In this document: positions 1,045 through 27,009 of the stretch, piece by piece
Layout: the number at the start of each line of letters is the position of its first letter
How positions within the stretch are numbered: position 1 is the first letter of the stretch
From: Clostridiales bacterium
GTDB taxonomy: Bacteria > Bacillota > Clostridia > Oscillospirales > Oscillospiraceae
NCBI GenBank assembly: GCA_022782265.1
Contig: JALFOM010000028.1
Location: 1 to 64,000 of the forward strand
DNA: 64,000 nucleotides
Direction: 5' to 3'
Made by a program: the position numbers and the translations under genes
Notes under the pieces: generated by a model
What the model was told of the DNA's origin: nothing
The model's database searches: none
What the model saw: the letters and a program-made list of their open reading frames with translations, nothing else

Positions 1045-1854
1045 TCACCTGTATGCTTCGTTTACCTCCCGGGCCACATCCCGTAAGGCCTGTGCTTCCA
1101 TGGGACGCTGGAAATATTCAAACGACGGGGCACATTTACGAAGCACATAAGCGTAGTTTCCGTCCTTTGCCTGGTTGTCTGAATTGAGATACGCCCACGC
1201 TTCATCCAGCAGCGCCTCAACCTTCCCGTATGACGTGTTATCCCGGTCAAATGTCAGATGGGCAAGCATGACCAAAGAGATCGCAATCTCTCCATCGTGA
1301 TGACCCACCTTTTTTAATATCTCAATCGCTTCTTTCCAGTTTTCTTCCGCCTCATCATAACGCTTCAATTCGTTGAGCGTGCCTGCCCTGTTGTTCAGCA
1401 ATGCGGCATACTCATATGTTTCTGTCAAATCACTGCGAATATAGCATTCGGCGGCTTTATCATATAAGCGCAGGCCCTCTTCTTCCCGGCCGAAAAAAGA
1501 CAGCGTAGTTGCCGCGTTAATATAAATTGTAGCGCCGGAGAGGCTCTGGGTCAGGCCCAGTTTTTCCACCAAAGAGAGGCTTTCCTCCATAGCCCTCAGC
1601 GCCCTGCTTTTCTTTTGCGAACGCCGGTAAAAGCCAACGGCTTCATTCAAAACCGTCAACAGCCCTCTGTCATCACCCAGCCGCCTTGCCTCGTTTTCCC
1701 AGTATTCAATACACTCCCGGGCTTCTTTCATGTTGTTTCTGTTGAAGCATCCGTCCAGGCGTTCGATAAAGCGTGCAATATTGATTCTCGCGTCATTATC
1801 CATAGTTTTCTCCCATGATGCAGGCCGCAACATATTTATTATAATCAACAGCAT
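1045..1854 (-). CDS. Tetratricopeptide-repeat protein (start may be internal)
   Basis: Repeated TPR-like helices (YDKAAECYIRSDL, YDEAEENWKEAIEILKK). Confidence 0.7.
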   Translation of the reverse strand: MLLIIINMLRPASWEKTMDNDARINIARFIERLDGCFNRNNMKEARECIEYWENEARRLGDDRGLLTVLNEAVGFYRRSQKKSRALRAMEESLSLVEKLGLTQSLSGATIYINAATTLSFFGREEEGLRLYDKAAECYIRSDLTETYEYAALLNNRAGTLNELKRYDEAEENWKEAIEILKKVGHHDGEIAISLVMLAHLTFDRDNTSYGKVEALLDEAWAYLNSDNQAKDGNYAYVLRKCAPSFEYFQRPMEAQALRDVAREVNEAYR

Positions 1855-1976
1855 TCACCTCTGTCAACGCTTTCCTGCCCTTTTCCCGGTGAATCTGTGT
1901 TTTCCACAACTTTGAGACGGGAATTTCATGCAGTTTGGCTCTTGGAAAGCGGGGACGGATATGTTATATTATAGTC

Positions 1977-2307
1977 ACAAAGGATAAGTCCTATCTGAAA
2001 AGAGAGTCCCTGAGATCCGGAAAGGATAAGGGAGGGACGGCAGGGCGCGAAGGTCAATATTCGTGAAGGAAGCTTCCGGCATACAGTTCATCTCGCTTAA
2101 GAGAATTTATTGTTGACAAAAGAAGTGCCGTGTGAACAGGTTCCGAAGACTATGGAGCGCTCAATCTGCAGAAAGAGAGGTAGCCAGGATGTTAGATATC
2201 AAGAATTCAGAGAAATGACCCTTGACTGTTGCAGGTGAAAGATGCATCGGTCAAGGGTCATTTCGTTTATATACGGTTTTTTCCGTGCCCGGGATGGGCG
2301 TTTTTTT
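1977..2307 (+). ncRNA. Candidate structured small RNA, paralogue copy 1 (long form, ~330 nt)
   Basis: TTGGAA-N17-TATATT promoter (1942-1970), 5' hairpin AGGA/TCCT, conserved 3' domain 2170-2308 shared with copy 2, 17-bp stem 2212-2264, terminator stem plus T7 at 2286-2307. Confidence 0.7.
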
Positions 2308-2761
2308 ATCTTTTCCCGAACACAGACAGATCCAGATGGTGGGAGGTATCCCCCTCAGCCCGGGTGACGAAGTTGCGGGTGCGGAACTTCCACTTCCCTT
2401 CTTCCTTTACAAAGGTGTCAAACTTCCTGTCGATCCAGATGATCTGGGGCGGGAATTTTTTTGTGATGCCCTGGAGAACCACGGTGTAGGACCTGGCGGT
2501 GGCCGTCAGTCCGTCCTCCGCCACCTCAATGATGGGGTCGATGCACATATGCACGGTTTTGGTGGTGCCGTCCTTATAGCGGACAATGGGCTTGAGGGTC
2601 TGCATATAGCCCTCCGGGTCCCGGCTGTAGGTCAGCTTGCCGCCGTAGGAGATGTCCGCGTCCTTCAAAAGCCGGCACACGCCCTCAAAATCGCCGGAGT
2701 CAATGAGCCAGCAGTAGGAATACAGCAGATTCCTGATCTCAAATACGTCCTCTATTGCCAT
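2306..2761 (-). CDS. SnoaL/NTF2-like nuclear transport factor 2 fold protein
   Basis: MAIEDVFEIRNLLYSYCWLIDSGDFEGVCRLLKDADISYGG; SnoaL-like N-terminus and size. Confidence 0.65.
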   Translation of the reverse strand: MAIEDVFEIRNLLYSYCWLIDSGDFEGVCRLLKDADISYGGKLTYSRDPEGYMQTLKPIVRYKDGTTKTVHMCIDPIIEVAEDGLTATARSYTVVLQGITKKFPPQIIWIDRKFDTFVKEEGKWKFRTRNFVTRAEGDTSHHLDLSVFGKR

Positions 2762-2949
2762 GGTGAACTTCCTTTCATAGAAAAAATGCAGGACCCTCTG
2801 ATCCTGCTCACAACAGTTTCATTATATAAATTCTTTCGGATGATGTCAATACAGGCGAAAGCATTTCTGTGTATCGCACAACTTTAGCACGTTAAATTCG
2901 TGCACTATTCCCCTTTGCAAAAGCCCTTCTCCTGTGGTATATTATAGCC

Positions 2950-3158
2950 AGAAAGGGTGATACCCGATGTACAATTAAAAAAGCCACTGGAAGAAACGTA
3001 AAGTGGCAGCAAAATTGAAGAAAGAGAGGTAACCAGGATGTTAGATACTAAGAATTCAGAGAAATGACCCTTGGCTGTTGTAGGTGAAAGATGCATCAGT
3101 CAAGGGTCATTTCGTTTTTATCTTTCTTTTTCCGTGCCCCCGGAGGGGCGCTTTTTTT
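2950..3158 (+). ncRNA. Candidate structured small RNA, paralogue copy 2 (short form, ~209 nt)
   Basis: TTGCAA-N17-TATATT promoter (2915-2943), 5' hairpin GGGT-gat-ACCC, GCCACT/AGTGGC hairpin, conserved 3' domain 3018-3159, 17-bp stem 3061-3113, terminator GTGCCCC-CGGA-GGGGCGC plus T7 (3134-3158). Confidence 0.72.
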
Positions 3159-4941
3159 ATGCCGCTTTTTCCTGAGCCGTCAGATGCAGGCGCATCTGCT
3201 CCGCGACGCGCTCTACCCGCCCGGGGGCAAAGGGGCTTTCAAAGCCGCCGGCGGACACCGCGTCCATGAAGTACTCATAATCCCGGTCCAAAATCTCCAT
3301 GAATTTTTCCAGGCCCTGCCCGCTCTGCTCCTCTTCCAGGGCGTAGATCTGCATAGCGATGTCGTTGGAGACGGGGTAGCTTATGACATAGAACGGCATT
3401 TCAAAAAAATGGGTGATATCGCACCAGCTCATGGCGTAGTATTCCTCGTAGCCCTCCTCAAAGTAGCCGTACTCCATGGCCAGCTCCAGAGACAGCTCGT
3501 TCAGTACCTCCGCGCTGAGGGCCTCCGCGCCCAGGGCATAGACCCGGCTTTCAAATTCGGCAAAGGATGCCTGCTGCACATAGAGCTCCAGGGTGTCCAG
3601 CAGCTTCATCCGCACCACGTTCTCCGCCTCCTCCGCCTCCATGGCAGACTCCAGCCTTGACAGCGTCAGATACTCCATGGCCTGGGAGAAGATCTCCGCC
3701 ACATCAATGGTCTCATAGGCGTCGTAGTTGGCATAGGCATCCACATAGTGTCCGAACTCATGGGCAAAGGACAGAATATCCTCCGTGTCTCCATAGGGAT
3801 TCAGGAAGAGGAAGGGCGCTTCATAGTCGCTCAGGTAGGTCTGAAAAGACATACCGGCCTTTTTGGCGCTGACAGTCACGTCGTACAGCCCGTAATCGCT
3901 CATGAAATCAAAGGCTTCCTCCACCTGCCCGCCGATCTGCCCGGCAACGGTGTCCATGATACCCAGAAGCTCCTTTTCCGACAGGGCGTTATACCAGAGC
4001 TGCCCATAGGGCGAATCCGCCATGACCTCTTTATACAGCGGCACCATGTATTCCCTGATATCCGCCACATAGCCCGCGGCCTGCTCCGGGGTATAGTCCC
4101 GCTCAAAATAAAAATAATACTGCATCTGCTCGTAGCTTTCAAAGCCCAGTACATCGGCCTGGCGGTTTCTCACGTCCACCAGACGGATAAAAATGTCCGC
4201 AAAGCGCTGGTTGTATTTTTCGTAGTACTGCACCAGGGCTTCATTATATTCCTCGCCCTCCAGCTCCCACAGCACGTCCAGATCGTTCTCCTCCGCACCG
4301 TCCCGCTCAATGGTGGGATTTGCCGACAATGCCCGGTATTCGGCAATCAGGGCGCTCTCCTCCTGCATCAGCTCTACCACCAGGTCGGTGTAATAGGAGC
4401 TCTCCGCATCGCTGTATTCCTCCCGAAAGCCCTCCCAGAAATATTTCTCTTCCAGCTCCTCCGCGTTGGAGGAGGCGGCGCAGGTGTAATACAGCTCGTC
4501 AAAAAGCTGCTGCACCACGGCGTAATTCTCCCCGCACCAGTTGTATTCGGCGGCGTAATATTCATCCGTCAGGTTCTGGCAGCTGCGGATATCGGCCAGA
4601 GTGTACATGGTGTAATAGCTGTAATAGTCGTCAAAGCAGCTGTCCAGCAGCCGTCTGGTCTTCAGAAAAGGCACGCCTTCGTCCAGGGCCTCCCCGGCGG
4701 CGGCGATATCCGCGCGCAGAGCGTCCAGATCCGGACGGACATATTCCATGTCGTCAAAGTGGACCATGTCCGGACTGCGGCGGGCGCCGCTGAAGGGAGA
4801 GCCGCTGACGGCCTCAGCAATACTCTCCGCCGCCTGCTGCACGGAGCCGCAGCCGGCAAGCAGCAGCACAGCCAGCAGGGCAGAGATCAGACCGATCGTT
4901 CTCTTTTTCATGCTTATCCGTCCTTTCCCATCATTTTTCAT
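3157..4941 (-). CDS. M3-family metallopeptidase (oligoendopeptidase F-like) lipoprotein; start probably at the MKKRTIGLIS methionine
   Basis: HEFGH zinc motif; LLAVLLLAGCGS lipobox. Confidence 0.85.
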   Translation of the reverse strand: MKNDGKGRISMKKRTIGLISALLAVLLLAGCGSVQQAAESIAEAVSGSPFSGARRSPDMVHFDDMEYVRPDLDALRADIAAAGEALDEGVPFLKTRRLLDSCFDDYYSYYTMYTLADIRSCQNLTDEYYAAEYNWCGENYAVVQQLFDELYYTCAASSNAEELEEKYFWEGFREEYSDAESSYYTDLVVELMQEESALIAEYRALSANPTIERDGAEENDLDVLWELEGEEYNEALVQYYEKYNQRFADIFIRLVDVRNRQADVLGFESYEQMQYYFYFERDYTPEQAAGYVADIREYMVPLYKEVMADSPYGQLWYNALSEKELLGIMDTVAGQIGGQVEEAFDFMSDYGLYDVTVSAKKAGMSFQTYLSDYEAPFLFLNPYGDTEDILSFAHEFGHYVDAYANYDAYETIDVAEIFSQAMEYLTLSRLESAMEAEEAENVVRMKLLDTLELYVQQASFAEFESRVYALGAEALSAEVLNELSLELAMEYGYFEEGYEEYYAMSWCDITHFFEMPFYVISYPVSNDIAMQIYALEEEQSGQGLEKFMEILDRDYEYFMDAVSAGGFESPFAPGRVERVAEQMRLHLTAQEKAA

Positions 4942-26574: not shown

Positions 26575-26867
26575 GATTTATTCTCCTTTGCGGTGTTGAT
26601 GGAGGAGATGAGCATTCTACGTATTGAACCGCAATCGTGCAGAACAGTCTTTGCTACATCTTTGGAAATCAATTCCGCTTTTTGAGCAATTTCAATCCAG
26701 TATTCTGTTTCATAGCATTCCTTCAATGAAATCGCGCACAGCGCGATGAAATCCGAGCAGGCTCGGATGAAATCTGCTGACGCAGATGAAATGAAATCCA
26801 CCCATCCGCCGTTGAGGCGGATTTCATCCCCGTAGGGGATTTCATCATCGAAGATGATTTCACCCAC
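26571..26867 (-). pseudogene. C-terminal remnant of S23r/Avd-like four-helix-bundle protein whose 5' half is a hairpin-repeat array
   Basis: SDFIALCAISLKECYETEYWIEIAQKAELISKDVAKTVLHDCGSIRRMLISSINTAKENKS matches the C-terminal half of the S23r family; preceding codons are encoded by the repeat array. Confidence 0.65.
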
Positions 26868-26884
26868 CCAAAAGGGTGGATTTC
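26728..26884. repeat. Strand-symmetric array of seven short hairpins joined by GAA (left) / TTC (right) spacers
   Basis: Stems at 26731-26747, 26751-26768, 26772-26787, 26804-26822, 26826-26840, 26844-26858 and 26864-26879; GAA spacers at 26728, 26748, 26769; TTC spacers at 26823, 26841. Confidence 0.9.
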
Positions 26885-26889
26885 GTTGA

Positions 26890-26932: not shown

Positions 26933-27009
26933 TGGCACGCCGTAAGGGATTCGAACCCCTGACCTTCTGGTCCGTAGCCAGACGCTCTATCCAGCTGAGC
27001 TAACGGCGC
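26933..27009 (-). tRNA. tRNA-Arg(ACG), CCA encoded
   Basis: GCGCCGTTAGCTCAGCTGGATAGAGCGTCTGGCTACGGACCAGAAGGTCAGGGGTTCGAATCCCTTACGGCGTGCCA; anticodon loop CTACGGA. Confidence 0.95.

Follow-up and report, generated by a model that had tools for sequence, protein, structure and literature searches.

Several described systems share one trait or another with the two loci analysed here. The raiA motif RNA (ModT, RF03072), ROOL, GOLLD and OLE are, like them, conserved structured RNAs that occur in Bacillota as stand-alone units, some of them common in gut and rumen bacteria. The dual-function sRNAs SgrS/SgrT, Spot 42 and VcdRP are also stand-alone small RNAs carrying a small ORF, and tmRNA holds a frame of about ten codons that ends in a stem of a stable RNA. 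The STAB-SD leaders (cry3A, hbs) display a strong Shine-Dalgarno (SD) sequence near the 5' end of a Bacillota RNA, and SD sequences near the 5' end stabilise some Bacillus mRNAs. In pyrBI-type attenuators, the end of a short ORF overlaps an intrinsic terminator, the hairpin of which can be blocked by the ribosome. pyrBI is cited as a leader-peptide design in a study where, in E. coli, termination fell from ~90% to <10% when a stop codon was moved to a position 5 bp before the terminator, the ribosome blocking the hairpin (PMC4824070).

The two loci lie in a window of 64,000 nt, the whole stretch of DNA analysed, which is part of a metagenome-assembled genome (MAG; contig C85). At the level of sequence comparison, they and their relatives form a conserved RNA unit with conserved ORFs, a covarying stem, a stop codon placed in this stem and a stand-alone genomic context.

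Organisation of the two loci

Copy 1 extends on the plus strand from a promoter at 1942 to the end of a hairpin (T2) at 2308, and copy 2, also on the plus strand, from a promoter at 2915 to the end of its own T2 at 3158. Their predicted parts are as follows.

1838..1867, minus strand: copy 1 divergent consensus sigma-A promoter, TTGACA-N18-TATAAT (12/12 match)
1942..1970, plus strand: copy 1 promoter, TTGGAA-N17-TATATT, with extended TG, of the same type across copies
1976..2169, plus strand: copy 1 5' portion and long middle domain, without ORF1 (fold of the whole RNA and cluster alignment with relatives)
2077..2130, plus strand: copy 1 P3 (CGGCAT 2077-2082 / GTGCCG 2125-2130), around P4
2091-2104, plus strand: copy 1 P4 hairpin, TCTC-GCTTAA-GAGA; in relatives from other families the stem varies and the CUUA/CUUU loop is kept
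2170..2181, plus strand: copy 1 SD 2 (AGAAAGAGAGGT), anti-SD duplex of -13.9 kcal/mol
2189..2218, plus strand: copy 1 ORF2, MLDIKNSEK, with its TGA within the T1 stem; conserved in order and class
2212..2264, plus strand: copy 1 T1, a long terminator-like hairpin with a U-rich tract behind it (fold and covariation)
2285..2308, plus strand: copy 1 T2, GC hairpin and T7
2821..2849, minus strand: copy 2 divergent consensus sigma-A promoter, TTGACA-N17-TATAAT (12/12)
2915..2943, plus strand: copy 2 promoter, TTGCAA-N17-TATATT, with extended TG
2950..2978, plus strand: copy 2 SD 1 and ORF1 (ATG TAC AAT TAA at 2967-2978, MYN and stop)
3019..3030, plus strand: copy 2 SD 2 (anti-SD pairing strength)
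3038..3067, plus strand: copy 2 ORF2, MLDTKNSEK, with its TGA within the T1 stem
3061..3113, plus strand: copy 2 T1 hairpin and U-rich tract (fold and covariation)
3134..3158, plus strand: copy 2 T2, GC hairpin and T7

From its promoter position, copy 1 would start transcription at about 1976-1979. The two copies match each other by BLAST with E = 9e-46, and the folding of the whole RNAs compared with shuffles gave z = -4.2 for copy 1 and z = -6.1 for copy 2. Their reading as functional-looking paralogues that belong to the same stand-alone RNA family and have conserved stems, which an earlier sequence-only reading had put forward, is partly supported. Much of what that reading described is retrieved here: a match between the upstream sequences (~1894 and ~2867), with similar sequence recurring 5' of other copies; TTGSAA-N17 promoters, TTGGAA and TTGCAA in the window, each with N17, TATATT and an extended TG and of the same type at most copies; the GC hairpin with T7 at both 3' ends; the convergent orientation of both units to minus-strand genes; and an NTF2-like gene between them, which is SnoaL-like, i.e. 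of NTF2-fold. The variability that it attributed to the middle domain also stands, copy 1 being long and structured with its CUUA-loop hairpin and copy 2 having barely more than one hairpin.

Over the family, the middle domain ranges from ~70 to >400 nt. Across families, it repeatedly contains a small hairpin whose loop is CUUA or CUUU and whose stem varies, and folds are consistent within middle-domain subgroups; no single consensus fold emerged, the long forms aligned over their full length giving almost nothing outside T1. Members of the copy 2 type have a near-zero middle domain, yet ORF1, ORF2 and T1 are kept. In loci from other orders (L212-L228), a motif formed by ACACGACGGTGTNACGTATAATATAGAT and AAATTCGCCTTTTG is shared in the middle domain, upstream of ORF2, and traces of it are also present in L161 and L165.

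A near-consensus promoter directed away from the RNA was found at 98 of 119 loci, versus 7.3 in shuffles, and this predicted divergent promoter is part of the family layout (~80% of copies). The divergent transcripts expected from it tend to start with GTTGGG, GTTGTG or GTTGCGG, with a hairpin and a T run within ~50 nt; at one locus (L128), the divergent promoter drives a tRNA gene instead. A terminator-like hairpin (2788-2807, minus strand), possibly an attenuator of the SnoaL-like gene (2306-2761, minus strand), separates this gene from the divergent promoter of copy 2. In many copies, the interval between their two divergently oriented promoters contains a recurring sequence, TCTGYGTTTTGCAYAA ... 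TTTGTACAAAATT (e.g. ~1894-1913 and ~2867-2886 in the window), which is possibly a binding site for a shared regulator.

Short reading frames and the terminator-like stem

The 3' domain, 88% identical between the two copies and already singled out for its conservation, reads AGAAAGAGAGGTARCCAGG-ATG-TTA-GAT-AYY-AAG-AAT-TCA-GAG-AAA-TGA, i.e. an SD followed by a nine-codon frame (ORF2) that the earlier reading had missed. The stop codon of ORF2 falls four pairs into the 5' arm of a 17-bp stem in the window copies. Genus copies were collected with a pattern fixing the first codons of ORF2 and leaving the stop free; among ~102 unique ones, the frame is nine codons long in 95 and eight in 5, and the stop is TGA, TAA or TAG in all but two. 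TGG, a triplet that stem pairing alone would tolerate too, was seen once at the stop site, versus 7.8 expected (Fisher p = 2e-4, phylogeny ignored). This test of stop-codon independence concerns the genus set only, the order set having been pre-filtered for short ORFs. Length variants of ORF2 are mostly in frame and the frame survives indels.

Beyond the genus, in covariance-model hits that were not chosen by their ORF, the frame follows the pattern M-(x)-L-[D/E]-x-K-... over 8-10 codons (e.g. MLDIKSEQK, the commonest peptide elsewhere, MTLDFKSEQK, MLDLKSTEK and MLEPASEMK). ORF2 ends within the stem in all but a few of these hits in the order and the class, and its canonical stop is absent in few copies (L030, L050, L153a, L183 and L209). 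The synonymous share of the non-consensus codons is 18/25 for Leu, 7/14 for Asp and 12/17 for Lys, higher than the fractions expected from single changes (~0.50, 0.22 and 0.24, respectively) in a comparison that ignores shared ancestry; the non-synonymous changes of Asp are all to Glu. SD regions 1 and 2 pair with the general anti-SD at -13 to -14 kcal/mol, which is stronger than ~90% of the window genes (median -10.6); the general anti-SD was used, an exact search for the 16S 3' end in the genomes having returned none. Ribosomal RNA is often missing from MAGs.

The long stem for which wobble changes between the window copies had been described (T1) displays strong covariation over the family. 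In an alignment of 53 diverse copies, compensatory changes affect both sides of 15/16 pairs, 97.4% of the cells are paired, and no shuffle (0/500) or slid control comes close; homologues keep the stem. T1 is followed by a U-rich tract, and T2 is found downstream of it in 57/99 genus copies versus 8.6 in shuffles. The interpretation of the conserved 3' block as an SD and a conserved, predicted ORF of 8-10 codons with its stop in a terminator-like stem is well supported. It amends the former notion of a structured sRNA family: the stand-alone nature and the maintained stems stand, and the 3' block appears as more than structured RNA.

At the 5' end, ORF1 has at most four codons in 45 of the 52 non-genus copies with promoter and start detected, the frame controls being imperfect in that ATGA makes a +1 stop. 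A strong SD near the transcription start is followed by ATG, and the frame closes within four codons; conservation concerns the stop and not the peptide (MYR, MYK, MF, MNR, MRK, MKI and others). This unit is doubled in tandem at L161 and L223. Of the two window copies, only copy 2 carries it (MYN), and many genus copies lack it as well. A 5' hairpin had been considered as covarying between the window copies. Pairing is possible in both, but covariation is not established, because the segment in copy 2 is the SD and start region of a three-codon ORF conserved throughout the class; the apparent covariation is better read, at least partly, as conservation of a predicted ORF1 ribosome-binding site.

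Distribution, genomic context and excluded candidates

In the order, 54 of 297 genomes matched a covariance model of the 3' domain, and in the class 21 of 392, among which are families belonging to other orders, with 1 to 7 copies per genome. This search rejects the idea of a genus-specific element, for which BLAST had given almost nothing outside the genus. With BLAST, 49 of 55 good-quality relatives have some match at E <= 1, the weak ones of which may be chance. In GTDB genomes, loci that share the core originate mostly from ruminant-gut Oscillospiraceae MAGs, and one from Candidatus Limivicinus faecipullorum. Most of the genomes compared are fragmented MAGs, and the copy, promoter and codon counts derive from consensus scans.

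The neighbours of the copies are unrelated genes on either strand, and the family is therefore considered as stand-alone and not as a leader. The orientations of the flanking ORFs are even (++ 23, +- 23, -- 21, -+ 17), and in the window the neighbours encode a TPR protein, the SnoaL-like protein and a large protein without Pfam match. The same sites are occupied in close relatives (G012). Tandem pairs 0.5-0.9 kb apart occur in several genomes (L145, at 908-1016 and 1501-1609, L153, L060, L101 and the window copies). At three non-genus loci, a tRNA gene lies on the same strand less than ~100 nt downstream (L155 1680-1753, L215 1688-1761 and L221 1335-1418). A Gut-1 RNA (RF01706) stands beside a tRNA gene in the window (26816-26888 and 26936-27009, both on the minus strand), and the same pairing is found just downstream of the family member in L215 (1688-1878).

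No Rfam 15 family was retrieved at the window copies or at 39 loci with relatives, with gathering or relaxed thresholds, the matches at relaxed thresholds being chance microRNA-like ones on the long hairpin. Both RNAs that had been named as candidates to rule out are without Rfam match. The raiA motif (RF03072) has no covariance-model match in the window or at the 39 loci; a raiA search in 20 relatives was empty, and its positive controls likewise gave no signal. CsfG has none even at E up to 5, and this sRNA requires a forespore sigma F/G promoter, whereas the promoters here are of the sigma-A type TTGNAA-N17-TATATT. Neither tmRNA (RF00023) nor a replacement of it is in question, the loci having no match and the genome a separate, ordinary tmRNA; ROOL, GOLLD and OLE gave no Rfam match. 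Phages and plasmids contain no match to the family. In IMG/VR, one pattern retrieved two contigs, of which only one (L138) is family-like, and only at the contig edge, and a second pattern retrieved none. In open-access papers, no account of the family was found.

Proposed reading and comparison with known systems

We tentatively propose, with a confidence that stays somewhat short of even, that the two loci belong to an uncatalogued family of regulatory RNAs of the class Clostridia, stand-alone and ribosome-engaged, in which translation of ORF2 decides the outcome at T1. In the full form, its own sigma-A promoter would give an RNA starting with a strong SD and an ORF1 of 2-4 codons, continuing with a variable structured domain that contains the CUUA-loop hairpin, and closing with a fixed 3' module made of a strong SD, the 8-10-codon ORF2 and T1 with the ORF2 stop inside, often followed by T2. 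A ribosome completing ORF2 on the nascent RNA would cover the 5' arm of T1. With ORF2 untranslated, T1 would stop transcription; with ORF2 translated, the polymerase would continue to T2. Both ends of the RNA would be shielded by the ribosomes that cycle on its ORFs, its amount, 3' end and lifetime would follow translation initiation, and the regulatory work would be done by the middle domain. With the ORF2 stop located in the hairpin in nearly all copies across the class, translation of ORF2 should oppose T1. It is our inference that the ORFs are actually translated, that this controls T1 and that the ends are protected, and the same applies to any target; ribosomes probably read these "non-coding" RNAs as well.

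Several points speak against parts of this proposal. Readthrough of T1 would mostly reach just T2 or a convergent gene, and its benefit is not obvious. In Bacillus, transcription outruns translation, which, if true here, would weaken the control of terminators by ribosomes. The amino-acid conservation of ORF2 exceeds the need of a role limited to placing ribosomes. The many genus copies devoid of ORF1, together with copy 1, and the few copies without canonical ORF2 stop also count against it. A broader claim, which we regard as doubtful, is that of a new class of Clostridia RNA in which two minimal translation units bracket the RNA, ribosomes set termination and lifetime, and the middle domain reports translational capacity.

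The constraint on the Leu, Asp/Glu and Lys positions, whose codons change synonymously, the similarity of the peptide across orders and the strong SD would also suit a micropeptide gene, the peptide of 8-10 aa being its product and the upstream RNA a long regulatory leader acting on its translation, or the nascent peptide acting on the ribosome. We consider this explanation unlikely: positions 4 and 6-9 of ORF2 are loose, paralogues within one genome differ in their peptide, 9 residues would still be inside the ribosomal tunnel at termination, and there is no nearby partner gene. Improbable as well, in our estimate, is a regulatory sRNA whose middle domain is the active part, through base pairing or protein binding, with ORF1 and ORF2 just anchoring ribosomes that protect the ends, an explanation close to the idea of the sequence-only reading. 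In its favour are the covarying CUUA-loop hairpin, the subtype-specific folds, the strong SD close to the 5' end and the presence within a genome of several paralogues that differ in their middles, but the members of the copy 2 type dispense with nearly all of the middle domain while keeping the rest, and anchoring alone leaves unexplained why the stop should lie in T1.

An attenuator or leader of a downstream gene is very improbable, for although a short ORF overlapping a terminator is the design of a leader peptide and is found in nearly all copies, the downstream gene is equally often on the opposite strand, including at both window copies, and no downstream gene family recurs. The chance is just as slight that the loci are a mobile repeat or a bidirectional DNA terminator without RNA function, as the several copies per genome and the near-palindromic stem could suggest, with ORF, SD and promoters conserved, phages and plasmids without match and the same sites kept in close relatives.

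The family that we propose spans many families and several orders of gut Clostridia, with up to ~7 copies per genome, and appears absent from Rfam 15. If translated, its ORFs would rank with the shortest translated ORFs conserved in bacteria outside leader peptides, and it would offer a natural system for how ribosomes set RNA ends and lifetimes in Bacillota. We know of no RNA family with a comparable layout, a 2-4-codon ORF, a structured middle and an 8-10-codon ORF with its stop in a terminator; the function could still be of a known kind. Unlike the pyrBI-type attenuators, the family is stand-alone, has its own T2 and no controlled downstream gene, and often carries a tiny ORF at the 5' end. 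The small proteins of the dual-function sRNAs are longer (29 aa for VcdP) than the 8-10 codons of ORF2, which is fused to the terminator and accompanied by an ORF1 of 2-4 codons. The raiA motif RNA, ROOL, GOLLD and OLE differ in layout from the family, which has ORFs and short variable middles. In contrast to the frame of tmRNA, ORF2 has an SD and a start AUG of its own, and in contrast to the STAB-SD leaders, the SD of the family has a start codon with a stop 1-3 codons on, in an RNA without long coding sequence.
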